Assembly: GCA_030278955.1 (NCBI GenBank)
Contig: JAOANR010000002.1
Span: forward strand, 12,141,982-12,205,981
Length of the DNA stretch: 64,000 nt
Origin: Hygrophila difformis
Lineage: Eukaryota; Streptophyta; Magnoliopsida; Lamiales; Acanthaceae
Reading direction: 5' to 3'
Within the stretch, counting starts at the first letter, position 1; every line of letters begins with the position of its first letter. This document shows positions 10,884-64,000 of the stretch, one piece after another. Made by a program: the position numbers and the translations under genes. Below the pieces are notes generated by a model. The model worked only from the letters and a program-made list of their open reading frames with translations, searched no databases and was not told the origin of the DNA.

Positions 10884-11328
10884 GTCTACCCCCCTTAAGA
10901 ATCAACTTCGTCCCCGAAGTTGCGCCCTCGCTTTCTTTTGGGCTCAATTTAACGTTGGGGTATTTCCATCTACTCTCCTTCAGGATAAACGTCTTCCACA
11001 AGAAATTTATTCCATTCCTTTGAACGTGAATTAAATTTCTCGGGTGTTACATCCTCTCCCCTTTAGGAATCAACTTCGTCCTCGAAGTTGGGCGTTAGCT
11101 CCTCGCGAGCTCGGACATTGTTTGGATGCGTGATTGTATTAATGTGTGTTGTTGTTTGTTATTATTTGACTGAACCCAGAATTGAAATTTCCAAGTTGCC
11201 TACGTACCCTGTGAAGGGATCAAGTCATTACGTAGTTCAAAACAATCTGAATTTGTTTATTTTTGATTGGATAAAATTCGTCGCATCGAACTCAAAAATA
11301 AATGCAGTTATCGATGCTTGGAAACTTC
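10884..11328 (-). other. 3' untranslated region of internal copy 2
   Basis: Near-identical to 5818-6262: two polypurine modules with CAACTTC/GAAGTTG hairpins and the conserved block starting at 11167. No coding sequence is seen. Confidence 0.7.
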
Positions 11329-12390
11329 TTACGGTTGCTTGGGCCGAGTGGTCACGTCCTCTCTCCTGTTTATGTTTTCTATTCGCGTCCGGCAGTCACG
11401 CAGCCGATGACCATGTCGACCGCACCGAAGGCATGATCCAGGCTGAGGGCATCCTCTCGCATAGTGTGGTTTACCACACTTTGGACATGGTGGCGCATAG
11501 TCACCATGGTTGAAGACTATCCCCTTGTTTCGTCCATTGTCGTTTTGATGTGGTTGGTTCGAGTCTCTACGGACATGGTCCTTATTCCTCTTGTATCCTC
11601 CTTGTGGTCCTTGGTTAGTGCCATCTACCGATTTCCGTTTCAGTCCTTGAACTCGTGCAACCGCTACTGCACGATCATACACAGCTTGTAGGTCAGGGTA
11701 GTGCTCACCCGTGATCACCTCTCTAATAGATAGGTTCAGTCCCATCTCGAACTTCTGTGCCTTCTCTACATCAGTTGGCACCAGTCTCGGCGCGAACCAC
11801 ACCAACTCCTTGAAACGGTTATAGTACTCTTGGACCGTCTTGCCTCCTTGCCTCAGTGTCAGAAATTCCTCGTACATAGCAGCCTTCGTGCTCATGGGAT
11901 AAAAATGATTCCTAAGCAGATCTGTGAAATCTAACCATGCGCTGGGCTCGTCGTACTCCGCACGTTTCCATTGGGTGGCTTGCCACCAATCATCCGCCTC
12001 GCCTCCCAAGTAGTATGAAGCTACGTGAACCTTTTCCCCGTCGGGACACTTTACGGCGTTCAACAGCTTGTCGAACGTCCGTATCCATTCCTCTAGCTGA
12101 GCCGGGTCCTCTTCGCTGGCGTAGTGGGGTGGTTGGTAAGGGTTTACCAAGGCTAAGTAGTTGACCCGGGTTACCGGTGGTGGTACACCCGCTTGTGCAC
12201 GTTGCACTTCAGCATTTCCTAATACTACGAGAACTTCCTCGACAGTCCTTAGACGCTCATCCATATTGTTGAGAACATGAGGCACTCGCCCTCCTACGTT
12301 CTGAGGGATCTCATTATTGTTCGGTGTGTTGGGGAGGTCAGCGTTAGTGTTGTTTGGGATTTCCTTTCTCGATTTTCCCTTAGGTGCCAT
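11329..12390 (-). CDS. gag: Gag polyprotein, array copy 2 (353 aa, intact)
   Basis: Second full-length gag of the array, same length and same domain order as the copy at 6263-7324: start MAPKGKSRK, Retrotrans_gag core at about residues 85-235, zinc motifs near 302-314 and 320-333. It differs from the first copy at only a few residues (P/L near residue 40, E/D near 156, and S/P, S/R and Y/S further on). Both frames are open although nothing in cis selects for them, which points to recent duplication rather than long maintenance. No pol follows. Its 5' leader and LTR 3 lie on its right, its 3' region and LTR 2 on its left. Confidence 0.93.
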   Translation of the reverse strand: MAPKGKSRKEIPNNTNADLPNTPNNNEIPQNVGGRVPHVLNNMDERLRTVEEVLVVLGNAEVQRAQAGVPPPVTRVNYLALVNPYQPPHYASEEDPAQLEEWIRTFDKLLNAVKCPDGEKVHVASYYLGGEADDWWQATQWKRAEYDEPSAWLDFTDLLRNHFYPMSTKAAMYEEFLTLRQGGKTVQEYYNRFKELVWFAPRLVPTDVEKAQKFEMGLNLSIREVITGEHYPDLQAVYDRAVAVARVQGLKRKSVDGTNQGPQGGYKRNKDHVRRDSNQPHQNDNGRNKGIVFNHGDYAPPCPKCGKPHYARGCPQPGSCLRCGRHGHRLRDCRTRIENINRREDVTTRPKQP

Positions 12391-12924
12391 TCTCTGTTAT
12401 CAACGCACGTGAAGATGAGTTTCTAATCTAAGGCAAGTTAGCGTTCAAGAAAATCTATAAGGTAGGATTGGAAAGAGGTAATAGATAGGAGAATGCTAAA
12501 CTTAGGTGATCAAATTATAAGACTGAGGCAGAATTAGTTTAAAGCAAACGCTTCTAAGTCAAGGTCATGACCAATTTGAAGGTAAGAGTTTTGACACTGT
12601 TAATTCACATAAAAAAAAATTAGCGCGATATTCATGTATGTATGTATGCGAATGCATGTATGCTTTATACAATGCTACCCCAACCCCGAAAAATATTTTC
12701 GTGACTTTAAAAACTTGTTGGAAAAATTTCTATGCATATGTAAATATTTTCCATGGGTTTAAAATAAATTTTGCTCCATGGAAATAAAACTTAAAATTTA
12801 GATAATAATAATGGTACTTAAAAATTTTAAAATAATATTAATATTTGTTTAAAAATCTTGGGCCTCTATATTCGCCAAAATAATAATAATAATTTAAAAA
12901 TATTTCCGGGCTCTGATACCACTT
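12391..12924 (-). other. 5' leader and primer site of internal copy 2
   Basis: Copy of 7325-7858. The primer-binding site at 12908-12921 reads TGGTATCAGAGCCC in sense, matching initiator tRNA-Met. The rest is AT-rich and non-coding. Confidence 0.85.
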
Positions 12925-15900
12925 TGTAACACCCCGGATTTGATAACCCAGGCCGGGGTGCCACCGCCACACCTCCCTAGCAAGACACGGTTCCTCCGAG
13001 CTTGCTAAGAAGATGCAAGGCTATAGGTGTTGGAAAAAGTTTTAAAAGCAAGTCCGGAATTACTTAAAAATGATAATGTAATATCATCCATACATGATAA
13101 TAAAAATAATAGGTTGCAGCGGAAATTAAATACAGGGCCGACATGGCCAAAACTCGGGTTAACAAGCCCGTATGCAAGTCATGTAGAACAAATAATTAAA
13201 TACCCAAAGTGATCCCCGATGCATGATCATGCTCCGTACTCTGTAATGGAAAAATGAACAACGGGTTTTATCAGTATATAAAATACTGAGTAAGTTAAGC
13301 CCTAACAAAATAATTTAAGGGGTTACATGTGTTTAAATCCAAAGATTCACTTGTCATGCATTACTTTAAAAATCCATATTTTATTCGCAGCGGAAAACAT
13401 GTTTAATTTATTCAAGACGACAATGCATAATTTAAAAGACTTAATTTAAAAGCGGAATTTAAAAGCATAACTTAAATGACGTAATTTAAATGCGTAATTT
13501 AAAAACATACAAAAGATTTAAGCGTAATCAACACTCACACAAGTCTTTTATATTTTATCCCGCAACTAAGAAGAGGACACCACACAAGAGAGATCACTAA
13601 CGAGGCAATATCAAAAATCATAATCAGTTACCGGTGAACCGGCGGCCGCAGCCATATCAGTATTGACTGCCGTTTGGCTAGCCATGTATCTCGATTGCCA
13701 TTTCGGCAAGCCGTGTGTATCTACTGTCGATTTGACAGGCATGTATATCAACTGTCATCTGACAGGCCTTTCAAGCGGTTTCACTGCCACTCGGGCAGGC
13801 CGTGTATTTCTCACTGCCGTTTTGGCAGGCCATGTGCACAACTGTCGTTTTGGCATAATAAGGAGATCACTAACGAGGCAATCTCAGATAGTAGGGAGAC
13901 CACTAACGAGGCAGTCTCAAAGGTAATGATAGCATGAAGATCGGCTCAGCCTAGTGAACGGGATTTTTCGAAAGTTCGTATTTCAAGTGATCAAAAGATT
14001 CGATATCGCGTTTCATATTTCGAGTTTTCTCAAGTTCGAAAAATCTGATTTGACGCAGTTTACGCCTTTCTTAATTAAAAATTCTTTTTTACACCAAAAA
14101 TTCTGAAATTTACACAGTAGCTCAAAAACACACACACGAACAACTTTCATGTTTTAAGTTTTTGGAAATAAAATTTCGAAGTGAGTCAAAATTTGAGTTC
14201 TTTACATAAGACAATTTCTGTCTCAAAAACTGATTTTGTCACAGGTTCGTGCGACGCCGATTAAAAATTCATTTCAAAACCAATTGATCCGAAATTTTTA
14301 CAGGAGATACACATCACATTAATGAACAACTTTCATATTTTAAGAATTTGGAAATAATGAATTTTAGATGTTCAAAAATCGACCACAACACGCTGTACAC
14401 GCGCGGACTCAAAAGGTTGCTTAAAACAGGTTCTGAAATTCGGCCGTTTGACATATCAAATGAACTCCAAAATCCATGAAATTTTATATGCATAATCTAG
14501 ACACATTTATCTACAACTTCTGTCTAGAAATGCAAAGTTAAATCATTCTAAAAATGGGTGAAAAACATGCATCAAGTCGTGTATCGAAATCTGTCAACGG
14601 TTCCAAATGTTCGGTTTGTCACAGAAAGTGTACGGCGAGTTTTAGGATAGCAAATCTTAATGTCAATGGCTGAAATTTGGACACAAGATAGATTGAAGTC
14701 TTAGGAACAAAATCTATGTTGAAAAGTTTTCGGTTTGAATTCCCGAAGGTCGGGTTTTTGGCGAGTTTTTGAAATTGGACGAAAATAGGGTTTTTGAAAA
14801 TCGATTTTTGTTACGGGCATAGATCTAGAGTTTTAAACAACAATAAACCATAAAAACTTGTGAGTAAGGTCTTAACTTACTTAGTTAGAGATTTGGGTCG
14901 CTGGATTGGGTTTCCGGACGTCCTAGGGTCGCGATGAACGACCAACTTCTCTGATCGTTTTTTGTTCGTTTTCCGACGTGAAATCGTAGCAAAGGAAAAG
15001 GGTTAGATTTCGAGTTTCTAAGTTGTATGGACGAACTAAAACATTATACCATAGCTTATCAAGAGTCTAGAAGCCAGGGGCTTGTCCCGGTCGTCCCGTC
15101 GTCGCCGGAATGCTCGCCGGAAAGTGGATTCGAAGAGAGTTTTGACTTGGAGAGGAAGAATGGAGTGTTTAGGGTTTGGTTTTCTGAAAATATGGGGAGG
15201 GGGCGCCCTTAGGTCGTTCTTAAGCTTCCCCTATGGCTGAGATCCGATTACCATCGAAGGGGATGTTAATTTTGGCAAGAAAATCGCCATGGAAGGAAAG
15301 TTTACACCTTCAGCACCTCTGGCGCGCTGGTGACGCACACCTACGCCTTTGCCCGCGCGGAGCACGCGTGGCCAGGGCTGGATTCGCGACTCCGCCTTCC
15401 GCGCGGTGGCGCGCGGCGAGCTCGGGCCGGCCGGACCGGCCGGTTCGGCGGTCCGCGTGGTCCGTCGGGTCTTTTCTTCTTTTCTCTATCGGTTTTCTGT
15501 CCTTCTACGTTTTCAGGCTCGACTTTCGGGTCGTTCTTGGGTTACGATTCCTTTCTTAAATTTATTTCGACTCCAATGAATTTCATATTCGAAATCTTGA
15601 ATCCGTCGAGTTTGAATCCGTCGGCTTGAATTCGTAGTCTTTTGGCTCCCTTGCAATTTTATCTAATTAAATTATTTCCGACTTCACGGGTTCTCGGAAT
15701 TAAAATTCTTTTCCTTCTTGAATTCAATTCGAATTCTTTTGGGATTAATCCATGGAATATCTTCGGGCTTCCTTTCCCTCTTTCATCCCATTTTGACTTG
15801 ATCAAAATTTGGGTTCGAATTCTCTGAATTTATCGATCACGCCATTTCCGAGCAATAATTTATTGTAATAAATTATTTTCTTCTCGGAAATAAATTTTAT

Positions 15901-15939
15901 TTCGTTTCTTTGGGCGTTGTAAAAACCTCGGGTATTACA
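12925..15939 (-). repeat. LTR 3 of the tandem array (outer 5' LTR)
   Basis: 3015 bases, TGTAACACC...ATTACA. It is followed directly by the right GTAGT duplication. It contains the CAGTAT/ATACTG stem-loop at 13272-13288 and the hairpin array at 13590-13918. Compared with LTR 2 it lacks a short GC-rich duplication in U3 (LTR 2 near 10340). Confidence 0.92.
13590..13918 (-). repeat. Hairpin array in LTR 3
   Basis: Third copy of the same arrangement of CTGCC/GGCAG and CTGTC/GACAG hairpins with flanking constant-loop hairpins. The first flanking hairpin has one stem change (AATATC instead of AATCTC). Confidence 0.72.
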
Positions 15940-16848: not shown

Positions 16849-17589
16849 TGTAACACCCCGGTTTTTGGTCACCCAGGTCGGGATGTCACCGCCACACCTC
16901 TCAAGCAATACACGGTTTCTCCGAACTTGCTAAAGAGATGCAAGGCTATGGTTTTTCAGAATTTAAAACATTCAAACAGCCCATTCATATATAATTAAAA
17001 ATAATACATCAAAGTTGCAGCGGAAAATAATATTTACATATATAATGCAGCGGAATTTAAATATAGGGCCAACATGGCCTAATCACGGGTTAAACAGGCC
17101 TGTTCATGCAATTCATATCTAAGACTAGAATAATAAAAGAAAATAATATTTTCCCGAATATCCCATGCATGCATATGATGATGCATATTCTTCATACTCT
17201 GTAGAAAAAGAAAGAAATGGTTTTGGTCAGCACTACGTGCTGAGTAAGTTAACACATACGTGATTATGGGGTTTCAAAGCCATTAGTTAAATTTTAAGAA
17301 AACATGTACACAATACCCCATAATTTCATTTATTTATCTAACAACAATTTAAATTGCATAATTAAATAGACAGGGATTCCATAATATCACAATATTGCTT
17401 GCAAGGTAAATAATTGCATAACATAACTTAAAAGCATAATTTATATAAGCGAAGGAAAGTATAAGTCTTTTAAATTTTCCCGTTAATCCCTAGCCGAGTA
17501 TCAAGATTTTATTTGTAGTCAAGTTTCTCTCGCCGTTTTGGCACAGTTTCTCATGTTCAACACCATCGTCCAATCAGACACGATGTGCA

Positions 17590-17775
17590 AAGCTAGGAGG
17601 GCACCCTGCAGAGCACTCACCCCCTACGTAGATTACTCCCGTCCGTCTAGGCACGAAGCAAAAAGATAGAGGGGCACCCGATGGAGCACTCACCCCCTAC
17701 ATAGGTCACTCTCGTCCGTTTAGGCACGAAGCAAAAAGCTAGAGGGGCACCCGATGGAGCACTCACCCTCTACGT
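17590..17775 (-). repeat. Tandem hairpin units in the element A LTR
   Basis: Three units of roughly 65 bases. Each has a purine-rich arm (TAGAGGGG or similar), a conserved loop (GCACCCGATGGAGCACTCA or a variant) and a pyrimidine-rich arm (CCCCCTA or CCCTCTA). The last unit pairs perfectly as TAGAGGG/CCCTCTA. The linker TAGGCACGAAGCAAAAAG is also repeated. Confidence 0.65.
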
Positions 17776-19135
17776 AGAAAGCTCAAACTAGTCATAACGG
17801 GATTTCGAAAATGTTTGTTTATGTATTTCATTTCACAGGAGTTTCCACTCATTTAAACCTTAAAGGCCAATTTCTCAAATTTAGTAAGTTTTTCAAAATA
17901 TACTATATCAGGACGCTACTCGCTCCGATATCATTTAAAATCCTTTTTCAACAAGATTTTCAAGATTTGACTCGGTCAACCCCAGTTTACTTCAAAATTC
18001 ATTAAAAATCGAGTTTAAGTCCAAAAATTGTGAAATTTGACCGGTGACACTAAAACACAGAGATGAACAAGTTTTATGTTTTAAGTTTTTCAATCCGAGA
18101 TACGGAAGTAGGTGAAAAACGTCAATATTTAACATGATGATAATCTGTCCGAAAATTCTGACACCAGTTTCAAGATTTCAAGATCTACCACAGCAAACTA
18201 ACTCCAAATTTGATGAAATTTTACAGAGAGATACCTAAAATGATTATCTACAACTTTCGTTTAGATCTCAAAGCCCAATTCTCATCGTATCAGAGGTTAA
18301 TCTTTAGATCAAGTTCAAAACTAAATTCTGTCAAGGTTCTTGATTTCGGTACAAATGCAGATCGAATCGGCTCAGGTTCGGAGGTTCAAATCTCAACGAA
18401 AAATTCTAAATATTTACAGGGATGTTCTAAATTCATAGATCTACAATTCTTATGTTCAACGCCAATCCTAGATCGGTCTAGATCTAAGGTAAAAATCAAC
18501 CACAAGTTCGGATAAAGAATCTATCACCGTTTCAAGATCTAAATCGAAGGCAGGTCTGTTCACGGTCGTTTTTGGATATCAAAACACGATGAAAAATTAT
18601 GAAAGTTTTACAGTAGATAGAACTATGTCTTAGGAACGTTTTTCATGTTTTAGGTTTTTTCGTTTGAAGACTTTTAAAGGTTCGGAAAAATTGGACAAAA
18701 TCGCTGCGCCGGTAGAAATCACATGTTGACAGATTTACGAAAGTTTTGATTAAGCTTTTAGGTTTACATGTTTTAATTACTCCCAAAACCATGTAAGTGT
18801 CCACTTACAGATTCGTAGTCGTCCGGGAACGTCAATTTCGGAGGCGTGGCTTCCAGTCCACCGTTTATCCTCTCCGTTCGTCGGGTTCTTCGTTCTCGAT
18901 CCGGATCGGGGTTTAGAATAGAAAAAGATCGAATTAGGATTTGTTTTCGAATCAAGGATGGAAAAGAATGGACAAGAATAGATCGGATCTTACCCCGACG
19001 ATCAAAGGCTCCCAATTTTCGTCCAAGTCAGTCCCCTTGTTCGGTTTTGTGCCTCCGACGACTTCCGGATCTAGGGTTTTGTGTATAGAGAGTATCGTAG
19101 GGTTTTGAAAAATGTTCGGGGCTTTCAAGAGGTGT

Positions 19136-19145
19136 TATTTATAGA
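19136..19145 (-). promoter_or_regulatory. TATA box of the element A 5' LTR
   Basis: The minus strand reads TCTATAAATA about 550 bases into the LTR in sense. This position leaves over 2 kb of the LTR as transcribed R-U5 sequence, including all hairpin arrays. Confidence 0.65.
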
Positions 19146-19692
19146 TAGAAATGACCTAGGGACGTCCAAGGTCAGCCTTGGTGAGTCTTGAGCCGCAAGG
19201 TGTTCAACCGAAGTCGGAAAATCCGGATTCGGGCGAGCGAATCTCGCAACGGGCGATTCTTCTTGCTGGCGCGCACTTGGCGCGGTAATCCCCTTAGGGG
19301 CGCGCGGCCACCGCGCGGCCTTGGTCCGGGCTGCGGTCTGGACCGGGTCGTGCGATCCGTCGGGCATTTCCTCCTCTCTTTCGGACTTCTATCCCTCTAT
19401 GTTCTCGGATTCGGATTTCCGGGGTATTTTCGGGCTCTGATTTCCTATCTTAATTTTATTCGGATCTAAATTTACATTTGGACTCGAGTTATTGAGTCCA
19501 TCGGTGTTGGGTTTCCGTGTAACCATTTATTCGATTAAATTGTCTTCGGCTTCCCGGGTTCTCGGAATTTTGATTCCTTTTTAATTTAAATTCCATTTCT
19601 CATCTTTTATTATTCTTTATCCATTTTTCATGTTTATTATATTTATTATATTTATTTATTTATTTTATGTTGCAAAATTCTCGGGTATTACA

Positions 19693-23830: not shown

Positions 23831-26358
23831 TGTAACACCCCGGTTTTTGGTCACCCAGGTCGGGATGTCACCGCCACACCTTCCTAGTGAGACACGGTTT
23901 CTCCGTCTTACTAAAGAGATGCAAGGCTAGGTATTTCAGTGTTTAAAAATATTTAAAGCATTTGCAACCAGCCCATACAATATAGTCTCGAAAATAATAA
24001 TATCATAGCGCAGCGGAAATAGTATTTAAGTATAATATCACATCGGAAATGTAAATGCGACCAACATGGTCAAAACACGGGTTAAACAGACTCGTTTATT
24101 CTAATGTCTAATGCAAGAATTTAAATAATAAAGTTTGGAAAATATAAGTTTCCCCAATGCATGAATGTGCTCATGATCATTCCACATACTCTATAAGGAA
24201 AAAGGAAAATAAACGGTTTGGTCAGCACAACTTGCTGAGTAAGTTAACACATGCATGATCGTAGGGTTTAAAAGCCATTAATTTAACATTTACATAAAAA
24301 TATGATAATATTCATAAATAATTTAAATAAAGCCATAATTAATTTAAATAAAGCATTTAATAATTTAAAAGACAACAATTTAATATTTAACTATCCCCAT
24401 TACACCCAAGATTTAGTATTTCAAGAGTTTCACGATTGTATCGCGATGTCAACAAGTTTAGCCGGAAACCGGCGGCCGCAGCCGTATCTGCCATACCCAG
24501 TACCACTCCGGAGCCTCGGGAAACCTATAAGGATATTCACGAGAGTGTAGGCCATATATCTCATGCCGTTTTGGCAACATATCTCAAATATTTCGCGCGG
24601 GGTCACCATCGTCCATATAGGCACGAAGTGAATCATTAGGAGGGCACCCTGCAGAGCACTCACCCCCTAATTTTAAGGATCAAGTTTGTAAAGGGGATTT
24701 CCTAATTTCCATATTTCATATGATTATTTCAAAGAGTCTTCTACTCGTTTAAACCTTAAAGGCTAGTTTCACCGTTTCAACAAGATTTCAAGATTTGACT
24801 CGGTCAACCACAGTTTACTCCTAAATTCATTAAAAATCGAGTTTAATTCCTAAAATTCTGAAATTTTACCACTGACTGAAAACATCGAGATGAACAACTT
24901 TCATGTTTTAACTTTTTCAATCCGAGATACCGAAATAGGTCGAATACATCAATTTTCGTCATAACCTTAATCTGTCCGAAATTCGTATACAGCAGTTCAA
25001 GATTATCAAGATCTACCATATCAAAGCAACTCCAAATTTAATGAAATTTTACAGAGACCTTCATAATACATTTATATACAACTTTTATGTTCGGCCAAAG
25101 ATCTAAATCGGCCTAGAACTAATGTAAAAAACGTCATCAAGATCGAACCTAAGTTCTGTCAAGAAATTCAAGATCCAAGTTTCAGCAGTTCGGTTTCGGG
25201 TGGATTTCAAATACCAAAACGTCTCTAAAAATTCTGAACGTTTTACAGTAGATAGATCTAAGCCTTAGGAACGTTTTTCATGTTTTAAGTTTTTCCGTTT
25301 GAAGTCGTTTTAAGGTTTGGAAAAATTAGACAAGACTGTTGTGCCGGTAGAAAACATACATTGGCAGATTTACGAAAGATTTGTTTAAACTTTTAGGTTT
25401 GAATGTTTTAGTTACTCCCAAAACCATGTAAGTATTAACTTACTGATTTGTAGATATCCGGGATCGTCTATTTCGAAGGCGTGGCTTCCAGTCCTCCGTC
25501 TATCCTCTCCGTTCGTCGGGTTCTACGTTCTAGATCCGATTCGGGGCGAAGAAAGAAAAAGAAGAAGGTTAGGATTCGTTTTCGAATCGTATATGGAACA
25601 AGGATCGGATCGAAGCTTACCACGACGTTAGAGATCTTCAAAATTTCGTCCACGCAGTCCTTGCCTTGGTTTCGTGCCTCCGACGACTCCGGAACTAGGG
25701 TTTTCGGGCGTATAGAGAGTTGTAGGGTTCTGGAAAAGTGTTCGGAGCTTTCAAGAGGGCTTATTTATAGGTAAATAAGACCTAGGGGCGTCCAAGGTCT
25801 GCCTCTAAGGGTCTTGAGCCGAATGGTGTTCAACCGAAGTCGGAAAATCCGGATTCGGGCGAGTAAATCTCGCACCCAACAAATCTGCGGGGTGGCGCGG
25901 CCGTGGCGCGCCCATTGCCCATTGACCGCGCGGCCACCGCGCGGCTGCTGCCTGGACTTCGGTCCGGGCGGGTCGTGCGATCCGTCGTGCTTTTCCTCCA
26001 CTCTTTCGGACTTCTATCCCTTTATGCTCCCGGATTCCGATTTCCGGGGTACCTTCGGGTTGTTACTTTCTCTCTAAATTTTTACTCGGGTCTAATTGCA
26101 TGTTCGGATTCGAATTCTCGAGTTCATTGGTGTCGGGTTTTGGTGTACAATTTATTTACCTTTAATAATTCTTTTTATTTAATTAAATTCCTTTAATTCC
26201 TTTTTAAATTAAATCTCATTTCTCATTTCCTTATCTTTATTTATTTATTTACTGAATTTATCTATTTATGATATTTATTTTATTTATTGTTTATTTATTT
26301 AATTATTGTTTTACTTATTTAATTATTGTTTTATGTTGCAAAATTCTCGGGTATTACA
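23831..26358 (-). repeat. Solo LTR of the element A family
   Basis: 2528 bases, TGTAACACCCC...GGGTATTACA, flanked by the perfect duplication TGTAA (23826-23830 and 26359-26363). No internal sequence remains, so it is a solo LTR left by recombination. It shares TATA box, stem-loops and GC-rich U3 with 16849-19692 but is clearly diverged. That divergence makes it useful for covariation: GACC/GGTC at 24059-24071, CAGCA/TGCTG at 24223-24237 and TAGTGAGAC/GTCTTACTA at 23885-23913. Confidence 0.93.
25761..25770 (-). promoter_or_regulatory. TATA box of the solo LTR
   Basis: The minus strand reads CTATAAATAA, at the equivalent place to the boxes at 801 and 19136. Confidence 0.6.
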
Positions 26359-31017: not shown

Positions 31018-32869
31018 TGCCGTAGCCGGCCCAACCAACCAGACTGACAGATGGACCGATCCGGATATTTGGACAGACAGAAAAATATTCTGAATTATCC
31101 GGATCCAAATGCCAGTGGACCTGAATTAATTAAATGGAGAAGGACAAAGGATGGCCCAGTCCATTTAAAGGCCCAACAAAGCAACCTCAAAATTGAATTT
31201 GGCCCAGTGACACATAACGCATATTCATCTTGCCTTAACTTCCTAGGCTACAAGATTAACGCGATCCCAACTTGCGTTAAGGATATAGGCTCGCAAAAGA
31301 AGAACGCAGTTTCATTCTGCGTTAGAGTTCTTCTTCTCCATGACGATGCCGATCGTCGCCCTCCTCCGTTCATCCAATTTCTGCCCCATCGCGGCCACCG
31401 GCGTTCGCCCTCCATTTCCGATGGTCTACTCGTCAGCTTCGCCCCGACCACCAGCACCTTCAGTTCACATGGCCGCCGCCCGGCGAATACCTCACCTACG
31501 GCCACTGCGATCGTCACCTCCGGCGTGTCTCTCCTGCTCCGGCGAAGCCTCATCGTCCCCGCTAACCTTCCGAAGCCATCGTCCTCGACCTCCCTCGCCC
31601 TCATCCTCCCCTGGAATTCCAGCAAGGCAGCAGCGGCAGCGAGCCTCATCTTCCGACCACCTCCGTTGAAGAAAACCCTTAAGTTATCCTTTCACAATGC
31701 TCCGGCCAAGAGGGGAACTTCCCTGTTCGCCATTAGAGCTGAGGAGCAGCCCTCGACCGTGTCTCCGGTCGCCTCCTTAATTACTCCGGCCACCCCGAAA
31801 AGCGTAACTCCGACAAAGAAGAAAACCTCGATTTGCCGCAACTCTTCTCCGGCAAAGCTTCCATCGCCGATCACCCTCATCCTACCTCTGCCCGACCACC
31901 TTGCGCTTCGCCCCAGTCATCTCCGAGGGCGCCAGTTTGTATCTCCGTCGTCGTCGACTTCCGAAGCGCATCTCCGGCCAATCCTCCATCTCTGGCGAGG
32001 CTGTTGCTGCCATCTTCATCATCGAACGATTGCTACGGCGCCAAGCTCAGCGTCGTCTCTTGTTCTGCGTCGTCCACTGCCTCCAATGGTCTACGACGCT
32101 ATGCAGCCGAGCGTCGTACCTCCTCCCATGCTCAGCATCGTCCTTTGTATAGCGTCGTCACTGATCTTCAGTATAGCACCGTCCATTTCCATACTGCCTA
32201 GCGTCGTCCGCCCCTACCATTTCAAATTTCCTCTTGAGCGCATGGGTAGGGAACTCCCGGGTGTAAAGATCCTCCAGTACAATAATTTGAAAGTTGTCTC
32301 TCATGGACCCCGAGGTCCCGTCCCCTCCTCCGCAGGACTCCGAAATTCATTCCTCAATTGTGCTACGACGTAGTCCCTTTCAGCTTGGTGTCCTCCGAGC
32401 CCTTTTGAGTATAGCGTCGTATTTAATAATTTAATTTCCCTTGTTTAAATTATATTAGCACTTGTTTACTTATTTGTAATGGGTTGATTAAAGCCCCTAA
32501 TTAGTTGTTTAGCTTAATTAATCCATGTACTTAGGGTTTGCCTATATATAGGGCTCTCCCAACACTTTGTTCTTCACCTTATGCAATTTATTGAACACTT
32601 GCTTGAATAGCATATCAATTATTCTTAAGCTCACTTGAGAGATTGTGGGATCCGAAAACCCTCAAAATTCTAATTGTGTTTGTAGCTTGAGCTAACATCA
32701 CAATTCTTGGATTTTTGAAGCTAAATCCAAGGTTGATTTTCCCTTGTTGCATAAACATTGGAGAAAGCTTCCCTATCCAACTCTTGTTCTTCAACCCCCA
32801 TTTCTTCCATCCTTTGATTTTCTTTTCAATCTATTGATTTCTTTGTTTTGGATCTTGGAGCCTACACCA
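31018..32869 (+). repeat. 5' LTR of the non-autonomous element
   Basis: TGCCGTAG...CTACACCA. U3 holds interrupted palindromes of the AACGCA/TGCGTT type (31215-31237 decayed, 31256-31280, 31303-31323). A GC-rich stretch (31330-32230) with many AGCGTCGT copies follows, then a TATA box at 32543-32551. The long open frame at 31051-32373 is not recognised as a protein. Confidence 0.92.
32543..32551 (+). promoter_or_regulatory. TATA box of the 5' LTR
   Basis: TATATATAG, followed by CTCTCCCAACAC. Conserved at 38866-38874 in the 3' LTR. R-U5 would be the last 300 bases of the LTR. Confidence 0.7.
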
Positions 32870-37344: not shown

Positions 37345-39191
37345 TGCCGTAGCCGGCCCAACCAACCAGACTGACAGATGGACCAATCCGGATATTTTGG
37401 ACAGACAGAAAAATATTCTGAATTATCCGGATCCAAATGCCAGTGGACCTGAATTAATTAAATGGAGAAGGACAAAGGATGGCCCAGTCCATTTAAAGGC
37501 CCAACAAAGCAACCTCAAAATTGAATTTGGCCCAGTGACACATAACGCAGATTCATCTTGCGTTAACTTCCTAGGCTACAAGATTAACGCGATCCCAACT
37601 TGCGTTAAGGATATAGGCTCGCAAAAGAAGAACGCAGTTTCATTCTGCGTTAGAGTTCTTCTCCTCCATGACGATGCCGATCGCCGCCCTCCTCCGTTCA
37701 TCCAATTTCTGCCCCATCGCGGCCACCGGCGTTCGCCCTCCATTTCCGATGGTCTACTCGTCAGCTTCGCCCCGACCACCAGCACCTTCAGTTCACATGG
37801 CCGCCGCCCGGCGAATACCTCACCTACGGCCACTGCGATCGTCACCTCCGGCGTGTCTCTCCTGCTCCGGCGAAGCCTCATCGTCCCCGCTAACCTTCCG
37901 AAGCCATCGTCCTCGACCTCTCTCGCCCTCATCCTCCCCTGGAATTCCAGCAAGGCAGCAGCGGCAGCGAGCCTCATCTTCCGACCACCTCCGTTGAAGA
38001 AAACCCTTAAGTTATCCTTTCACCATGCTCCGGCCAAGAGGGGAACTTCCCTGTTCGCCATTAGAGCTGAGGAGCATCCCTCGACCGTGTCTCCGGTCGC
38101 CTCCTTAATTACTCCGGCCACCCCGAAAAGCGTAACTCCGACAAAGAAGAAAACCTCGATTTGCCGCAACTCTTCTCCGGCAAAGCTTCCATCGCCGATC
38201 ACCCTCATCCTACCTCTGCCCGACCACCTTGCGCTTCGCCCCAGTCATCTCCGAGGGCGCCAGTTTGTATCTCCGTCGTCGTCGACTTCCGAAACGCATC
38301 TCTGGCCAATCCTCCATCTCCGGCGAGGCTGTTGCTGCCATCTTCATCATCGAACGATTGCTACGGCGCCAAGCTCAGCGTCGTCTCTTGTTCTGCGCCG
38401 TCCACTGCCTCCAATGGTCTACGACGCTATGCAGCCGAGCGTCGTACCTCCTCACATGCTCAGCATCGTCCTTTGTATAGCGTCGTCACTGATCTTCAGT
38501 ATAGCGCCGTCCATTTCCATACTGCCTAGCGTCGTCCTCCCCTACCATTTCAAATTTCCTCTTGAGCGCATGGGTAGGGAACTCCCGGGTGTAAAGATCC
38601 TCCAGTACAATAATTTGAAAGTTGTCTCTCATGGACCCCGTGGTCCCGTCCCCTCCTCCGCAGGGACTCCGAAATTCATTCCTCAATTGTGCTACGACGC
38701 TGTCCCTTTTAGCTTGGTGTCCTCCGAGCCCTTTTGAGTATAGCGTCGTATTTAATAATTTAATTTCCCTTGTTTAAATTATATTAGCACTTGTTTACTT
38801 ATTTGTAATGGGTTGATTAAAGCCCCTAATTAGTTGTTTAGCTTAATTAATCCTTAGGGTTTGCCTATATATAGGGCTCTCCCAACACTTTGTTCTTCAC
38901 CTTATGCAATTTATTGAACACTTGCTTGAATAGCATATCAATTATTCTTAAGGTCACTTGAGAGATTGTGGGATCCGAAAACCCTCAAAATTCTAATTGT
39001 GTTTGTAGCTTGAGCTAACATCACAATTCTTGGATTTTTGAAGCTAAATCCAAGGTTGATTTTCCCTTGTTGCATAAATATTGGAAAAAGCTTCCCTATC
39101 CAACTCTTGTTCTTCAACCCCCATTTCTTCCATCCTTTGATTTTCTTTTCAATCTATTGATTTCTTTGTTTTGGATCTTGAGCCTACACCA
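37345..39191 (+). repeat. 3' LTR of the non-autonomous element
   Basis: 1847 bases. Palindromes at 37543-37565, 37584-37608 and 37631-37651 are all intact here. TATA box at 38866-38874. One 6-base deletion (near 38852) and scattered substitutions separate it from the 5' LTR. Confidence 0.92.
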
Positions 39192-43765: not shown

Positions 43766-44428
43766 AATACTCATTCCCTCGATCGGGATTGAGTTACCAA
43801 AGTCGGGGGTCGAAAATAAGGTAAGAAATCGTCGAAAACTGAAAGTTGATCACACACTGTGATGCGGCGCGGTGGCGCATATTTCATCAAAACCGCGTGG
43901 AGACCGCGGGGGTCCGGCGTGGGCTGCGGTCTGGGCTGGGATGTGCGATCCCTCGGGCCTTTCCTCCTCTCTTTCGGGTTTCTATCCTCCTACGTTTTCG
44001 TGCTCAAATTTTTGGGTCATTCTCGGATTACGATTTCTATCCTAAATTTATTTCGACTTATATTGATTTCGTATTTGAAATCTCGAATCCGTCGAGTTTG
44101 GATTCGCCGGCTTCGAATCCGTCGACCTTCGATTCCTGTGCAATGATTTATTTATTTAAATCATTTTTGACTTCACTGTTCTTGGAATAAAAATTCTTTT
44201 CTTTCTTGAATTTAATTCCAATTCTTTTGACTCGATTCATGAAATGTCTTCGGGCTTCCTTTCCCTCTTTTATTCCATTTTGAATTTTTGATTCTATCGA
44301 CGTTTCATTTACGAGCAATAATTTATTGTGGTAAATTATTTTCTTCTTCTCGGAGATATTTCGACCTTGATCGGATTAAGAAACTAATTTTATTTCTTTG
44401 GACGGCGATAAAAATCTCGGGTATTACA
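43766..44428 (-). repeat. Truncated LTR of array 2
   Basis: Matches the region starting near 48901 and, past the solo LTR insertion, 50489-50929. Ends GGGTATTACA. Only U3 sequence is left. Confidence 0.85.
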
Positions 44429-44765
44429 GTTTACCCCCCCCCCCCCCTTAAGAATCAACTTCGTCCCCGAAGTTGCGCGTTAGCTTTTCGCGAGCTTAGA
44501 ACAAAGGTTCATTTCGTTCATTTCTATATTGCGTTATTGTATTATTGCGTTATCATATGTTATTGTATGATTTGTATTATTTTATTATATCGTTTGACTG
44601 AACCCAGAATTGAAATTTCCAAGTTGCCTACGTACCCTGTGAAGGAATCAAGTCATTACGTAGTTCAAAATAATTTGAATTTGTTTATTTAATGATTTGG
44701 GATACATAATATTCGGGTTGTTACATCCTCCCCCCTTAAGATTACAGTTATGTCCCCATAACTGC
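44429..44765 (-). other. 3' untranslated region with extended polypurine tract
   Basis: The tract beside the LTR is a run of about 13-14 C on the plus strand (G in sense, 44434-44447). Hairpins at 44456-44475 (CAACTTC/GAAGTTG) and 44745-44764 (CAGTTAT/ATAACTG) share the loop GTCCCC. The conserved 90-base block is at 44595-44682. Confidence 0.65.
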
Positions 44766-45873
44766 CTATGTATTATTCTCAAGAAGGTTCGGGTTTTGAT
44801 CTTGTTCCTTGTCACCCTCTCCTTGCTGAAGGTTCATCAGGTAAATTCTCTTTTCGATCGCCTCCTCTGGCGTTCGACATCCCCTAGGCTTGTGACCAAA
44901 CTTGCCGCACTTATAGCAGGCTCCAGGCTTCGGGCACTGGCGCACCAAATGTGCATGGTTGCATCGTGGGCAACGTGGTATGAACGCACCACAGTTGTCA
45001 TCTCCTCCATTGTTGAGACCTTTATTTTCTTTCCTTCGAGATCCATTGTCTTTCCTAGAGTTGTTATTGTTGTCTTTCCAATCCTTCTTCTCAAGTCCTT
45101 GCGAGTCCTTGCTCGACTCACCATTTTCCTTACGCTTCAATTGCTGGATTCGAGCAATCGCTACAACTCAATCATATATCGTCAGCAGGTTCGTGAATTG
45201 TCCTACTACAAGTATCTCCCGGATACTAAGGTTCAGACCCATCTCGAATTTCTGAGCCTTGTCAGAGTCGGTTGGTACTAGCCTCATAGCAAATCGTACT
45301 AGCTCCTAGAATTTGGTGTAGTACTCTTGCACTATTTGCACACCTTGTCTGAGGTTGATGAATTCCTCGTACTTCGCAGTTTTGGTGCTCAGTGGGTAGA
45401 ATCTTTCTCTCAAGGCTTCCTTAAGTTCTTCCCAGGTGTAGGCTTCTTCGTCTTCCTCTGAATTTGTTTGAAAGTTTTGCCACCACTCATCGGCTTCGCC
45501 TCCTAAGTAGTAGGTCGCTACACGTATCTTCTCCTCGTCAGGGCATTTGATAGCGTTCAAAAGTTTATCAATGATACGGATCCACCCCTCTAGATTGGCA
45601 GGATTCTCTTGCCCATCATAGTGTGGTGGTTGATAAGGATTCACTAACGCTAGGTAGTTGATTCGAGCTACTGGCGGAGGTACTGTTGCTTGTGCCCTAT
45701 GCACCTCAGCATTTCCTTATGCTACAAGAACTTTCTCTATAGTTTCTATACGTTCTTCCATATTGTTGGGCACAGGAGGCACTCGTTCTCCTAGGTTCTG
45801 AGGAGTCCCATTGTTGTTGGGCATGTCAGTGTCAGTGTCGTTTGGGCTTACCTTCCTCGGTTTTCTCCTAGGT
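44766..45873 (-). pseudogene. gag of array 2, copy 1, dead
   Basis: Relic of a gag related to the one at 6263-7324. The expected start codon near 45873 reads ATT instead of ATG. Stops occur near 45719 (TAA), 45306 (TAG after EYYTKF) and about 45165 (TGA where copy 2 has CGA). The Retrotrans_gag core (VNPYQPPHYDGQENPANLEGW, YYLGGEADEWW) and two zinc motifs (CPRCNHAHLVRQC, CYKCGKFGHKPRGC) are still readable. No pol follows. It cannot make protein, so later spread of the family must have used gag from elsewhere. Confidence 0.88.
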
Positions 45874-47255: not shown

Positions 47256-47430
47256 CGCTAGGGCTCTTATGTCCGCTAGCCGTACACTTGGGCTCGTACG
47301 TCCACAAGCATCATGGTCAATATTTTACTAGGATTATCACATCCGCTAGCCATACGATCAATATTTCCGCTAGGGCTCTTACGTCCACTAGACATACACT
47401 TGGGCGTATATGTCCAGAAGCCCTAGACAA
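47256..47430 (-). repeat. Tandem hairpin units in the array 2 LTR
   Basis: Five units with alternating stems: CTAG/CTAG (units near 47258, 47330, 47371) and CTTG/CAAG or a variant (near 47287, 47400). Middles of the type GGCTCTTACGTCC recur. The unit sequences differ from those in other LTRs at the same relative place. Confidence 0.65.
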
Positions 47431-50484: not shown

Positions 50485-50489
50485 ATCCT
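50485..50489. repeat. Target site duplication ATCCT, right copy
   Basis: Follows CTACGGCA and matches 49124-49128. Confidence 0.85.
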
Positions 50490-50929
50490 CCTACGTTTTC
50501 ATGCTCAAATTTTTAGGTCATTCTTGTATTACGATTTCTGTCCTAAATTTATTTCGACTTATATTGATTTCGTATTTGAAATCTCGAATCCATCGAGTTT
50601 GGATTCGTCGGCTTCGAATCCATAGACCTTCGATTCCCGCGCAATGATTTATTTATTTAAATGATTTTTGACTTCACTGTTCTTGGAATTAAAATTCTTT
50701 TCTTTCTTGAATTTAATTCCAATTCTTTTGACTCGATTCATGGAATGTCTTCGGGCTTCCTTTCCCTCTTTTATTCCATTTTGAATTTTTGAATCTATCG
50801 GCGTTTCATTTCCGAGCAATAATTTATTGTGGTAAATTATTTTCTTCTTCTCGGAGATATTTCGACCTTGATCGGATTAAGAAACTAATTTTATTCCTTT
50901 GGACGCCGATAAAAATCTCGGGTATTACA

Positions 50930-51269
50930 GTTTACCCCTCTTAAGAATCAACTTCGTCCCCGAAGTTGAGTGTTAGCTTTTCGCGAGCGTAGAACTAAGG
51001 TTCTATCGTTCATTTCGTTCATTTCTATATTGCGCTATTGTATTATTGCCTTATCATATGTTATTGTGTGATATTGTTTCTATTATTTTATTATATCGTT
51101 TGACTGAACCCAAAATTGAAATTTCCAAGTTTCCTACGTATCTAGTGAAGGGATCAAGTCATTACGTAGTTCAAAATAATTTGAATTTATTTATTTAATG
51201 ATTTGGGAAACATAATATTCGGGTTGTTATATCCTCCCCCTTAAGATTACAGTTATTCCCCATAACTGC
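50930..51269 (-). other. 3' untranslated region of array 2, copy 2
   Basis: Copy of 44429-44765 with a short polypurine tract. Hairpins at 50949-50968 and 51250-51268 (one loop base deleted). The conserved block begins at 51101. Confidence 0.65.
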
Positions 51270-51833
51270 CTATGTATTATTCTCAAGAAGGTTCGGGTTT
51301 TGATCTTGTTCCTTGTCACCCTCTCCTTGCTGAAGGTTCATCAGGTCCATTCTCTTTTCGATCGCCTCCTCTGGCGTTCGACATCCCCTAGCCTTGTGAC
51401 CAAAGTTTCCGCATTTATAGCAGGCTCCAGGCTTCGGGCACTGGCGCACCAAATGTGCATGGTCGCATCGTGGGCAGCGTGGTATGAACGCACCACGGTT
51501 GTCATCTCCTCCGTTGTTGAGACCTTTATTTTCTTTCCTTCGAGATCCATTGTCTTTCCTAGAGTTGTTATTGTTGTCTTTCCGATCCTTCTTCTCAAAT
51601 CCTTGCGAGTCCTTGCTCGACTCACCATTTTCCTTACGCTTCAATTGCTGGATTCGAGCAATCGCTACAGCTCGATCATATATCGTCAGCAGGTTCGTGA
51701 ATTGTCCTACTGCATGTATCTCCCGGATACTAAGGTTCAGACCCATCTCGAATTTCTGAGCCTTTTCAGAGTCGGTTGGTACTAGCCTCATAGCAAATCG
51801 TACTAGCTCCTAGAATTTGGTGTAGTACTCTTG
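51270..51833 (-). pseudogene. gag of array 2, copy 2, truncated and dead
   Basis: C-terminal part of the same gag: RLVPTDSEKAQKFEMGLNLSIREI, then a basic hydrophilic linker and zinc motifs CPRCDHAHLVRQC and CYKCGNFGHKARGC. It carries the same TAG (near 51808) as copy 1 at 45306. It is cut off at 51833, inside the EYYTKF region, by the start of the chromovirus sequence. Unlike copy 1 it keeps CGA in DRAVAIAR. Confidence 0.85.
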
Positions 51834-53247
51834 CTATCTGAGCCAAACTTGTTGGTGCAATAGGATTACTCTCCATATTTCTATGTTTTATGTGGTATTT
51901 CTTCTTGTTTGAAAAATCTAGAAAAATCCTAAAAATAACTTGTAACTCTCGGCCATACCATATTTCTTCATATCTTGTTTGTTGTTGATGTTAGTCTTAT
52001 TGTTCTAATCTCATGTGTGAATGTGCTTGCATGACTATTTGAGTTTATTGGATTAAATAAGATCATTAAGAGCAAACAGTGAAGGGTTTTGTGGGTTTGG
52101 GAGTGTGAGGCCTTATTTTGTGGGTTGAATTGTACATACCGTGTTCTTGGTGTGTTCATCCAAAATCCAAAGTGTTCTAGCAAGACTTGATATAATAGTA
52201 TAGTTTGGGTTTGCATGGGAAAGGCTAGTATATGTAGCCGTGATCATTAAATGTCCAATCATATATAAATTCGGCACCTTGTTTAGTGTGAGGATATTGT
52301 AAGAAATCCAATGCATTTAATTCTCCAAGGAGGTACCAGACATTCAACCGAAAAAGGAGGAAGAAAGTCAAATTTTGCGGGCCATCCAATTCGAACTCAA
52401 TTCGTTCTATACCCTTCCAATTCGGTATATACCGCATTGCTTGGCACAAACCGCATTGATTCTCCTACTGAAGAAAAATTGCCAAGGCTCAACACTCAAT
52501 TCGGTATTAAGCATCAATTCGGTATTCCCTAAACCGAATTGCATCTAAACCGAATTGCCTGAAGAAATTGTGCATCAAGTACCAAGCCATCAATTCGGTT
52601 TATGGGTGAGATATAAACCGCATTGAAGACCCCTAAACCGCATTGCCTCCACTAAAACCGCATCGATTGGCACTAGAATTTTCAAGTGTTGTGGTGCAAA
52701 TCTGTATCCATTATTATTTTCTCCTTCTACATATTTGAGTGTTTTGAGTGAATTTACAATAAAGTGAATATCGGATTGGCACAATTTGAAACCTAGCCCG
52801 AGAAGCCACTTGAGTACTTGTACAATAAAGTGGATATCGTGACTGGCATTTTGTGAAACCTAGCCCGAGAAGTCATTTGAGTAAATTGGGTTTTAATTCT
52901 CGAGTGCATTTTCTTGTGAGCTTTATTTTTCCACTTCTAAATTGGGACAAATATCACTGCTCTTTGCTTGCAATATCTGTTTAAGACTGTGAACTTGATC
53001 AGACTACAGTACATACATACATTTCTATCTGTTCTTTGATTGAGTCGAAAAGTTCATTTGACTCTTGAGCTGTGCGTACAAAATATCTGTTTGTACTTCA
53101 CATGCATCTGATTGAACTATTTGAGCAGGGGACGAACTGAAGTGGTATTGAGGACCCAGACTGAGTGCAAATTTGAGAAGTTCCCTCTACATATTTCAGC
53201 ACTTATTTTCTGACCTACATTATATCTATATTATTTTTCTGTGAGTC
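51834..53247 (+). other. 5' leader of the chromovirus
   Basis: Non-coding. Contains palindromic AATTCGGT/AATGCGGT words (52385-52680) like those in the solo LTR at 49129-50484, a duplicated block near 52760 and 52820 (ACAATAAAGTG...GAAACCTAGCCCGAGAAG), and the CTTTGATTGAGTCGAA block shared with the element at 31018. Confidence 0.6.
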
Positions 53248-56618: not shown

Positions 56619-59067
56619 TGTAATACCCGTAATTTTTAGGACATAAAATAGAATTTAATCCGATGAGCAAAGAGGTTTTGTTCCGAGAACCCGTGAAGTC
56701 GGAAATGCGTGGAAGTCAAGAGACAACGATTTGGAAGCCGACGAACCCGAAACCGACGGACTTAAGATTTCAAACATGAAATCAATTTGAGTCGGAATAA
56801 ATTTAGGATGAGAATCATAACCCGAGAATGACCCGGAAAATCGAGCCCGAAAACGTGGAAGGATAGAAGTTCGAAAGAGAGGAGGAAAAGACCCGACGGA
56901 TCGCACGGACCGGTCCGGACCGCGGTCCAGACCAGTGCCGCGCGCTGGCCACGCGGGGTTTGGCCTTCCAGCGCGCCAACCCCGCGTGACACCCCAGAAT
57001 GCGGCAATTCACGCGTTCATGGCGATTTCTTACCATATTTCCGACCCCCGACTTTAGAAACTCAATCTCGAGTGAAGAAAGGTGTATATGGTCGGCTCTA
57101 GGGGTCTTAGGACTCATTATTTTCGAAATCCCAAACCCTAGCAGCCCCATTGTCTCTCCCAATTCTCCCAAGTTCTTCCAACACCCGAAATCACCGACTT
57201 CGAACTTTCCGGTCACTTTCCGGCGATGAAAACCGATGGAGGAGGCATGGAATACAAGGTCTCTAGTGCTCCAGACTTTGGTAAGTCGTTCATAGGTTTT
57301 CATTTAAGTTTTCGAACCCGAAAACTCGATCTAACATTGGATTTATTCTTCCGATTTGAAATCATGGCCAAAGTTGGAAGCTTGGCGTTGAGGAGATCTG
57401 TTCGTAGTGAATTTGGACGAGCCGAGCGACCCTAGGACGACCAAACACCCTATCACTGTAAGTTGATGCCTTTCATATCAATACAGGTGGCTTAGGGGCG
57501 TCCAATTTAGTCACTTTGTAACGAAACGTAAAAACCGAACCTAAAAACCCTATCTTGCGCAATTTTTGAAATCCGATTAAAAACCCTATTTCGAGAGTTC
57601 AAACCGTAAACCTCAAAACTAGACTTTTGATCCTAAGTGATTTAAAACCTTTTCGGAAATCTGACAATGTAGATGTCCGAACTTGATGAGCACGTTCCTA
57701 TATTTTCTACTCCGAATTGATCTTTGAAATCTAAATGAAAGTTGTAGATAATCATGTCTAGTATGTGCATATAAAATTTCAGAATTTTTGGGGTCCATTT
57801 GGTATGTCAAAACATTAATTGTCCGAACTGTGGTAAAACTGAAACCTGACAGTGTATATGATGTGCAATAAACTCGATTTTTGACATGTTTCCTCAACTT
57901 ATTTCGAAATCGTTAAAACACAAAAGTTTTTCGTTAGAGTGTTTTTGGTTCACTGTACAAATTTCAGAATTTTCGGACTTGAAATGAATTTTTAAACTAA
58001 AAAGGGCGTAAACTGTGACGCCAAACGATTTTAAATCGAAGAGATTTTGAAATTTCGAAACCAACGGCCGAAACCTTGAAATACGATACATCTATACTTT
58101 TGAAAAATCCCGTTACACTAAATTGAAACGATATGAGATACTTCGGTGGAGGGTGAGTGCTCTGCAGTGTGCCCCTCTAGCCTTTCTCTTCGGGCCTACA
58201 ATGGACGAGAGAATTTAGATGAGATACTACGCCAAAACGGCATTGAGATACGGCCTACACTCTCGGGATTTTCCGTATGGATTTCCAGAGGCTCCGGAGT
58301 GTTTTGGGTATGGCAGATACTGTTGCGGGCGCCGGATTACCGGCTACACAAGAAACTTACGAAACGGTTGCGGCCGCCGGATGACCGGCTACACTAAATA
58401 TTGAGAAACGGTGATGTAACGGGGAAAATTAAAAGACTTAATACTTTTTACGCATTTATTTATTTATTCTTGTCTTTAAATTTTGCATTTAAATTTATGT
58501 CTTAAATTTTATAACATGTTAAACTATTATTTATGAATTTAAAGCATGTTCAAGTATACAATTAAATTATTTATTTTTAAATTGGTAAATGAAATATTTT
58601 TCGTATGCATGCCTAGGAGTAAAATTTAATTATTTAATTTAATCCCCTTTATGGCTATGTTAGGATCGACTTACTCAGTATTTTATATACTAATAAAATT
58701 GTTTTTCTCTTTTTCTCCGAGTATGGAGAAAATGCATGAGCATATGCATTTGGGGGACGGGGGGACGGGAAGATTTAAACATTGTTTTATCGCTTTTCAT
58801 GATACTTGCATATCGGGCATGTAAAACCCGAGTTTTGGCCATGTCGGCCCACTTTACATTTTCCGCTGCGATATATTATTATTAATATTATTATGTGTGT
58901 GGATGAGACTTATTTATTATATTTTAAATAAATTCCGTACTTGTTTTTAAAACTCTTTCCTATACCTATAGCCTTGCATCTCTTTAGCAAGCTCGGAGAG
59001 CCTGTGTCTTGCTAGGGAGGTGTGGCGGTGACATCCCGGCCTGGGTTATCAAATCCGGGGTGTTACA
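56619..59067 (+). repeat. 5' LTR of the Tekay element
   Basis: 2449 bases, TGTAATACCCG...GGGTGTTACA. It contains a GC-rich U3 (56880-57000), a TATA-like TGTATATGG near 57083, degenerate repeats at 57660-58110 and hairpins at 58150-58390. A CAGTAT/ATACT stem-loop lies at 58676-58692, a GGCC/GGCC stem at about 58843-58855, and a TAGCAAG/CTTGCTA stem-loop near 58985-59014. Confidence 0.92.
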
Positions 59068-63184: not shown

Positions 63185-64000
63185 TGTAACACCCCGGATT
63201 TAGTAACCCAGGCCGAGGTGTCACCGCCGCACCTCCCTAGCAAGACACGGCTTCCCGAGCTCGCTAAGGAAGTGCAAGGCTTATGGGTATGCAAAGTTTT
63301 AAAAACATTCAACAATGAATCCGGAATTTATTAATACTTCAATCAAAGTACGATAGTAAAAATCATCATGCATGGATAAGGTAAATGCAGCGGAAAAGTA
63401 CTCACGGCCAACACGGCCAAAACCTCGGGTTTAACAGACCCGGTAAAAACAGTAGTATGATGCAGTAATTAAAAACGTTCACAAATATATATCCCCCCGA
63501 ATGCGTGTGCATGCGTCACTCGACATACTCTGTAAAAGAAAAAAAAATGACAATGGTTGTCAGTATAAAGATATACTGAGTAAGTTAATCCCTAACTAAC
63601 AAATAAAAGGGGTTACATGTGTTTAAACTAAAGATTTCGCTTTCCATAAATTTAAAATACATAATTTATTTGCAGTGGAAAACATGATTAAAGGACATAA
63701 TTTTAAAAGCGTAATCTAAAACATAATTTAAGATGCAAAATTTTAAATACACAATTTAAAAACATGATAAATACGATTTAAGCATAATGGAACACTCACA
63801 CAAGTCTTTTACATTTTATCCCGTCGACTAAGAAGAGGACACCATACCGGGAGACTACTAACGAGGCAATCTCAACATAGGACCACTAACGAGGCAGTCC
63901 AAACAACGGGAGACCACTAACGAGGCAGTCTCAAAAAGATAGTAGGACCACTAACGAGGCGATCCAAAACACAGCGCGCGAGATCACTAACGAGGCAATC
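63185..64000 (-). repeat. Start of another minus-strand Tekay-type LTR, cut by the window end
   Basis: Starts TGTAACACCCCGG, as do the LTRs at 2800, 7859 and 12925. It has the CAGTATA/TATACTG stem-loop at 63561-63578 and a run of constant-loop hairpins from 63851 to the end. It interrupts the Tekay reverse transcriptase. It is closest to the first array's LTRs but clearly diverged. Confidence 0.88.
63851..64000 (-). repeat. Constant-loop hairpin array
   Basis: Five hairpins with the loop CACTAACGAGGCA or a one-base variant at 63851-63873, 63880-63900, 63910-63932, 63945-63965 and 63980-64000 (cut). Stems are GAGAC/ATCTC, GGAC/GTCC, GAGAC/GTCTC, GGA/TCC and GAGAT/ATC. Confidence 0.75.

Follow-up and report, generated by a model that had tools for sequence, protein, structure and literature searches.

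Candidate RNA hairpins with an invariant loop, repeated in the LTRs of a gag-only Ty3-type retrotransposon from Hygrophila difformis

We identified a short hairpin unit that is repeated in the LTRs of a Ty3/gypsy-type retrotransposon within a 64,000-nucleotide stretch of Hygrophila difformis DNA, which was analysed as a whole and is referred to below as the window. The single reading that best accommodates the observations, to which we assign a probability of roughly 0.4, is a sense-strand array of RNA hairpins, which probably forms part of the leader of unspliced transcripts and probably binds a protein. The retrotransposon transcript, read from the minus strand, would carry three such hairpins for each LTR of the element and at least five for a further, diverged LTR. 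Each hairpin is predicted to have a stem of eight base pairs (seven in two of the units) and the invariant loop CUCGUUA, and the hairpins would lie in the 5' leader supplied by the LTR, probably inside a leader intron. The combination of repeated units and a fixed loop would fit a multivalent protein-binding platform that is present on unspliced RNA only.

The hairpin units and the element that carries them

The core of the unit, CACTAACGAGGCA, occurs 14 times in the window when up to two mismatches are allowed, compared to a mean expectation of 0.95, and none of 100 shuffles reached 14 copies. Five of the cores lie at 63856–63997, in an LTR at the right edge of the window (LTR4). The corresponding units, on the minus strand like every feature whose coordinates we give for these LTRs and their element, follow one another across 63851–64000 (63851–63873, 63879–63901, 63910–63932, 63944–63966 and 63982–64000). 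The first-pass annotation had described this row of five units with a shared loop, and the description is borne out, the last unit being truncated by the window end so that 13 of the 14 are complete. The coordinates that it gave for copies in LTR1 (3467–3489, 3742–3764 and 3775–3797, with core starts at 3472, 3747 and 3780) are exact as well, and three copies are also present in each of LTR2 (8524–8546, 8797–8819 and 8830–8852; cores at 8529, 8802 and 8835) and LTR3 (13590–13612, 13863–13885 and 13896–13918; cores at 13595, 13868 and 13901). Only seven distinct sequences are found among the 13 complete units, the nine units of LTR1–3 being three units in near-identical copies. A covariance model search recovered the 14 known copies, all of them minus-strand matches, with no further match below an E-value of 0.07.

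LTR1 (2800–5817), LTR2 (7859–10883) and LTR3 (12925–15939) belong to one insertion, element A (2800–15939), which has the order LTR-internal-LTR-internal-LTR and carries ACTAC on both outer sides. Element A shows the hallmarks of a Ty3/gypsy-type LTR element: TGTAATACCC...GGGGTGTTACA termini with TG...CA ends, the ACTAC target-site duplication, a PBS (TGGTATCAGAGC) that adjoins the two inner LTR ends, and a purine-tract PPT that precedes the LTR start. The internal region is 2041 bp long, and its longest sense frames are of 355, 45 and 72 codons. The sole long frame is a gag ORF of 355 amino acids (11329–12396, with its counterpart in the other internal region at 6263–7330), and pol is absent. 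Both gag copies match Retrotrans_gag (E-values of 3.7e-17 and 1.5e-17), and Ty3_capsid falls just under the cut-off. LTR1–3 are 97.8–99.0% identical to one another. LTR4 (63185–64000), which is cut by the window end, ends in CGGGGTGTTACA and is inserted in the gag-pol of a plus-strand element, is 73.5–74.4% identical to LTR1–3 over the shared part.

We found 14 relatives of the gag protein, 33–44% identical over 47–87% of the query, and since nearly all of them come from Ipomoea triloba (13, the other being a Morganella record of 1330 bp), the window is plant-like. The plant-type gag filed under Morganella morganii (P0007, the 1330-bp contig) probably reflects contamination of that record. In viral contigs a 16-mer query was present in seven stretches, the pattern combining LTR end and PBS had no match, and an RT piece had no confirmed relative (nine stretches matched the peptide pattern). 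The 16-mer was found in 44 stretches of prokaryote genomes, for which a rough estimate of the chance expectation in 257 billion bases is about 240. No Rfam family, hammerheads included, matched the window at its gathering score.

Several other repeats in the window were recorded. The arrangement at 2800–15939, with its single ACTAC duplication and gag-only internal regions, represents a tandem product of recombination. Between the LTR-adjacent purine tract and gag (5818–5985 and 10884–11051), a second purine tract is followed by TGTAACACCC and resembles the start of another LTR; it is probably a trace of chimeric origin. Two direct repeats, one of 1.85 kb (31018–32869 and 37345–39191, 98.3% identical) and one of 1.35 kb (43984–45330 and 50485–51834, 94% identical), lie elsewhere, and the former may represent the LTRs of another element.

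The window also contains four more LTRs that are 55–62% identical to LTR2, namely B (16849–19692), C (23831–26358), D (ending at 46586) and E (56619–59067). C is a solo LTR of its family with TTACA on both sides. The covariance model found no CUCGUUA hairpin in B, C, D or E at an E-value below 1, so within the window the hairpin belongs to the lineage of LTR1–4, a result that we count against an RNA array.

A second type of hairpin is located between the type-1 units of LTR2 (8629–8762), with stems CTGCC/GGCAG, CTGTC/GACAG and TTGCC/GGCAA. Perfect stems of this type occur at 15 places in the window, all but one of which fall between type-1 units of LTR1–3; counted on both strands they number 30, compared to a shuffle mean of 1.0 and a maximum of 8 in 40 shuffles. 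Permutation of the arms of the LTR2 units gives a value of 0.057 (n = 7), which is suggestive only. Tandem repeats are found at a similar place in LTR B (17611–17778, with a 73-bp unit) and LTR D (47285–47397, with a unit of about 41 bp). The repeats of D were considered as a second case of a constant loop and rejected, their arms (CTAG/CTAG and CTTG/CAAG) giving a permutation value of 0.1 (n = 5) and their predicted fold being a different one that does not surpass shuffled sequences (z 0.54).

Predicted fold, paired changes and conservation

The sense strand is the minus strand, because gag, the PBS and the PPT all read on it, and the transcript therefore carries the complement of the letters in which stems and loop were first read. 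The first reading had also assigned a 13-base loop to the unit. In the sense RNA (GAGAY-UGC-CUCGUUA-GUG-RUCUC), three more pairs form inside those 13 bases, and the predicted fold is an 8-bp stem capped by a loop of seven nucleotides, CUCGUUA, that is unchanged in all 14 copies. Two of the three inner pairs are U.G and G.U and are possible on the sense strand only. All eight pairs are formed in 10 of the 13 complete units in the sense orientation and in none in the antisense orientation. The incomplete sense stems comprise two that lack the outermost pair and one, unit 13595 of LTR3, that is broken in pair 3. The sense version of the 23-nucleotide core is the more stable one in all 13 units, though by a margin of only 0.1 kcal/mol in 13595. 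For single 8-bp units one structure accounts for 91–92% of the predicted ensemble, and the z-scores of four units range from -2.6 to -2.9, which favours an RNA structure. The variants of the 13-base core (3780, 63856 and 63949) fall in the three inner pairs and remain paired in sense RNA; this is weak evidence, as five of the six possible transitions there would also pair.

Across whole arrays, the predicted folding surpasses that of shuffled sequences only mildly at best, and this counts against an RNA array. The array piece of LTR4 has z-scores of -1.65 in sense and -0.26 in antisense, two pieces of LTR2 have -0.90 and -1.92, and -1.94 and -1.28, respectively, and the piece of LTR D has 0.54 and -0.01. 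Across 168 folding windows of six LTRs there is no overall excess (mean z of -0.21 in sense and -0.40 in antisense); thus the LTRs are not globally structured. Hairpins of at least seven pairs are enriched in the sense strand of the LTR2 leader, with 13 found and 5.7 ± 2.7 expected, compared to five found and 5.8 ± 2.4 expected in antisense, a contrast that favours a sense-strand RNA. A sense excess is also present in the leaders of LTR4 (7 versus 3.0) and D (12 versus 5.3) and is not clear in those of B, C and E. However, hairpins of this size are also in excess on the antisense strand of LTR4, D and E, as well as in upstream parts of some LTRs (on the sense strand of LTR2 and the antisense strand of B and C), and both observations count against a sense-strand RNA. 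Inspection by eye of other conserved LTR hairpins revealed both G.U and A.C wobbles on the sense strand, and we claim no general asymmetry.

Paired differences between stems had been noted at the outset, and they are present in part. The four bases flanking the core form perfect Watson-Crick pairs in 10 of the 13 complete units, and the background frequency of perfect four-base arms separated by 13 bases is 0.6% of window positions. Two units of LTR4 (63884 and 63915) have perfect arms adjoining the core, but two others (63856 and 63949) have a C.A mismatch on the plus strand, where the minus strand has U.G paired, and 13595 is disrupted as described above. Among the seven distinct sequences, two of the eight pairs change on both sides (pair 2 from A-U to G-C, and pair 5 from C-G to U-A and also to U.G), and at pairs 6 and 8 a change in one partner leaves the pairing intact. 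Over these sequences 94.6% of the cells are paired, compared to at most 58.9% when the partner is slid. The fraction of cells paired and the covariation score are each reached in 5 of 500 shuffles; however, two doubly changed pairs are attained in 76 of the 500 and the number of pair types in 457, which counts against an RNA. When arms are permuted among the complete units of LTR2 and LTR4 (n = 7), the value is 0.014, although all of these covariation figures rest on few events and the shuffle and permutation controls ignore relatedness. The covariation amounts to two pairs and perhaps two or three independent events, and we count this against an RNA as well. With regard to the earlier proposal of selection on RNA or cruciform structure, the RNA side gains from the sense-strand stability of all 13 units and from the probable place of the array in the transcribed leader, whereas the covariation is confined to two pairs and is equalled in 76 of 500 shuffles. 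We consider selection on structure plausible.

Paired changes could also accumulate without selection if slippage or recombination had amplified a quasi-palindrome of about 31–34 bp, and one arm had been copied onto the other by template switching during replication or reverse transcription. The units do form imperfect tandem repeats, with periods of 31–34 and 59, few of their pairs vary while the arms are alike in other respects, and a structure-breaking change exists in 13595. However, such neutral duplication alone leaves the conservation of the core unexplained. Three pairs of units that we judge orthologous by their shared linkers (8529/63856, 8835/63949 and 8802/63915) have cores that are identical at 37 of 39 positions, compared to 74.2% for the LTRs that contain them (binomial, 9e-4, again from few events), and in the last of these pairs the stems differ by an exchange of U-A for C-G. 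Nor does it account for the lack of any change in the seven-nucleotide loop among 14 copies, though homogenisation within the array could be responsible for part of the constancy of core and loop. On balance we regard neutral duplication as a somewhat doubtful explanation.

Probable position in the leader and a candidate intron

Alignment of five LTRs (LTR2, B, C, D and E) places two GTAAG sites, 176–185 bases apart, in identical columns, and a branch-point-like block, CTTACTCA, likewise occupies identical columns in all five. The GTAAG sites of LTR2 (9989–9993 and 9810–9814) resemble 5' splice sites. A region that resembles a 3' splice site (8175–8228) consists of CTTACTCA, a small covarying hairpin (8205–8223), a pyrimidine tract and CAG. 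Because the five related LTRs share these aligned elements, the array (8852–8524 in LTR2) probably lies in a leader intron that would begin at one of the two GTAAG sites (9993 or 9814) and end at the CAG (8175). Within such an intron the hairpins would be present only in unspliced RNA. The first GTAAG was not found in LTR3, and the CAG that follows the pyrimidine tract is TAG in C and CCG in E. According to a review (PMC12786077), plant LTR elements are generally without introns, Ogre and EVADE being exceptions.

The small hairpin directly follows CTTACTCAG and has equivalents in LTR1, LTR3, LTR4, B, C, D and E. Its stems differ among LTRs (TAT/ATA, CAC/GTG and CAT/ATG), with two pairs changed on both sides, and its fraction of cells paired is reached in 5 of 500 shuffles. 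The second GTAAG forms a perfect hairpin with a later CTTAC (9797–9815 in LTR2) in LTR2, B, C and D; E is without a perfect one. The array is flanked by the aligned GTAAG sites on one side and, on the other, by a block that resembles a 3' splice site and has a hairpin of its own. This position, together with the pairing of the second GTAAG, would also suit hairpins whose effect is on how the leader is spliced or translated, which would hold a long intron together or set the unspliced fraction and have no loop-specific packaging role. However, the splice sites of this scheme derive from motifs, of which the CAG is missing in E and the first GTAAG in LTR3, and 130 of 500 shuffles match the two doubly changed pairs of the small hairpin. 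In addition, a purely steric function would make a fixed loop unnecessary. We consider a role of this kind quite unlikely.

In B and C, CTATAAATA is located 550–590 bases from the LTR start, and the first GTAAG and a sequence containing AACCCTA are both found downstream of it. Since the array is positioned downstream of this TATA-like and 5'-UTR-like sequence of the related LTRs, it is probably part of the transcribed leader, as judged from sequence comparison.

The units may instead function as DNA, the core being a putative site for a host activator or insulator protein and the arms adding a cruciform or a second contact. A constant 13-mer in tandem would be expected of such an array, and an AT-rich, TATA-like TATAAAAG is located just downstream of it in LTR2. 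Tandem protein-binding motifs occur in the regulatory regions and leaders of other LTR retrotransposons, such as the Su(Hw) sites of the Drosophila gypsy insulator and the BII boxes in the U3 of tobacco Tnt1. Those motifs are read as DNA by proteins, and compensatory arms are outside their definition; a plain site would not be expected to show paired changes in arms that surround a fixed centre, and the G.U pairs exist in sense RNA only. Moreover, inspection by eye indicates that LTR4, B, C and E have not retained TATAAAAG, and the CTATAAATA of B and C is far upstream. A regulatory DNA array is in our judgement unlikely. The arms GAGAC/GTCTC also recall TGTCTC, the motif of the auxin response element. 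Such an element was rejected, since GTCTC is preceded by A or G and not by T, and GAGAT is found in 6 of the 13 complete units.

Possible partners and comparison with known systems

If the hairpins are a protein-bound array on unspliced RNA, the likeliest putative partner is Gag or its nucleocapsid, which would select unspliced genomic RNA for the particle in the manner of a retroviral packaging region. A host splicing or export factor would be the next candidate. Dimerisation, which the first-pass annotation had suggested as a use of the loop, does not agree with the heptaloop, in which no self-complementary word is longer than CG. Neither kissing-loop dimerisation nor an interaction of the loop with another part of the element is supported, as LTR2 and its internal region contain no sense-strand 6- or 7-mer complement.

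Element A resembles the TR-GAG elements, which are LTR elements with gag and without pol. TR-GAG elements are short, under about 4 kb, whereas the LTRs (3.0 kb) and internal region (2.0 kb) of element A place it above this range. In many retroviruses the Psi hairpins are found downstream of the splice donor and hence on unspliced RNA only. Psi likewise consists of several short hairpins in a 5' leader, according to the accessible part of one account (PMC3902901). In contrast, here a single loop that is not self-complementary is repeated in tandem, in an LTR-derived leader before the PBS, and binding by Gag is a proposal. Retrozymes, non-autonomous plant LTR elements with hammerhead ribozymes, also have structured RNA within their LTRs, as stated in the accessible text on them (PMC4918200). 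Element A differs in having simple repeated hairpins and a gag ORF, and no hammerhead match at the Rfam gathering score. BARE1 and BARE2 of barley are also plant LTR elements, and the available portion of a report (PMC3735527) describes distinct pools of their RNA and splicing that serves Gag, and mentions conserved signals for dimerisation and packaging. However, that portion names no hairpin array, and the splicing it describes works in favour of an RNA for Gag alone and does not remove a leader intron from the LTR. A query with 12-mers of both strands of the loop string had no match in literature text, and no comparable array of hairpins in plant LTRs is mentioned in the titles and abstract openings covered, among which the retrozymes come closest.

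A broader scheme, to which we give little credence, is that related plant Ty3-type families each carry tandem arrays of their own in an LTR leader intron. The loop, in three to five or more copies, would then be a family-specific address on unspliced RNA, read by the matching Gag or by a host factor, and would let a gag-only element package its own RNA among those of its relatives.

In our view, little is known about how plant LTR retrotransposons select their own RNA and how non-autonomous copies compete. A hairpin that is repeated in the leader with an invariant loop is a candidate for simple binding and swap experiments. If the array proves to be neutral, it would be a clear case of templated mutation that mimics covariation. 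A leader intron inside the LTR, if true, would provide the element with a means of separating translated from packaged RNA.
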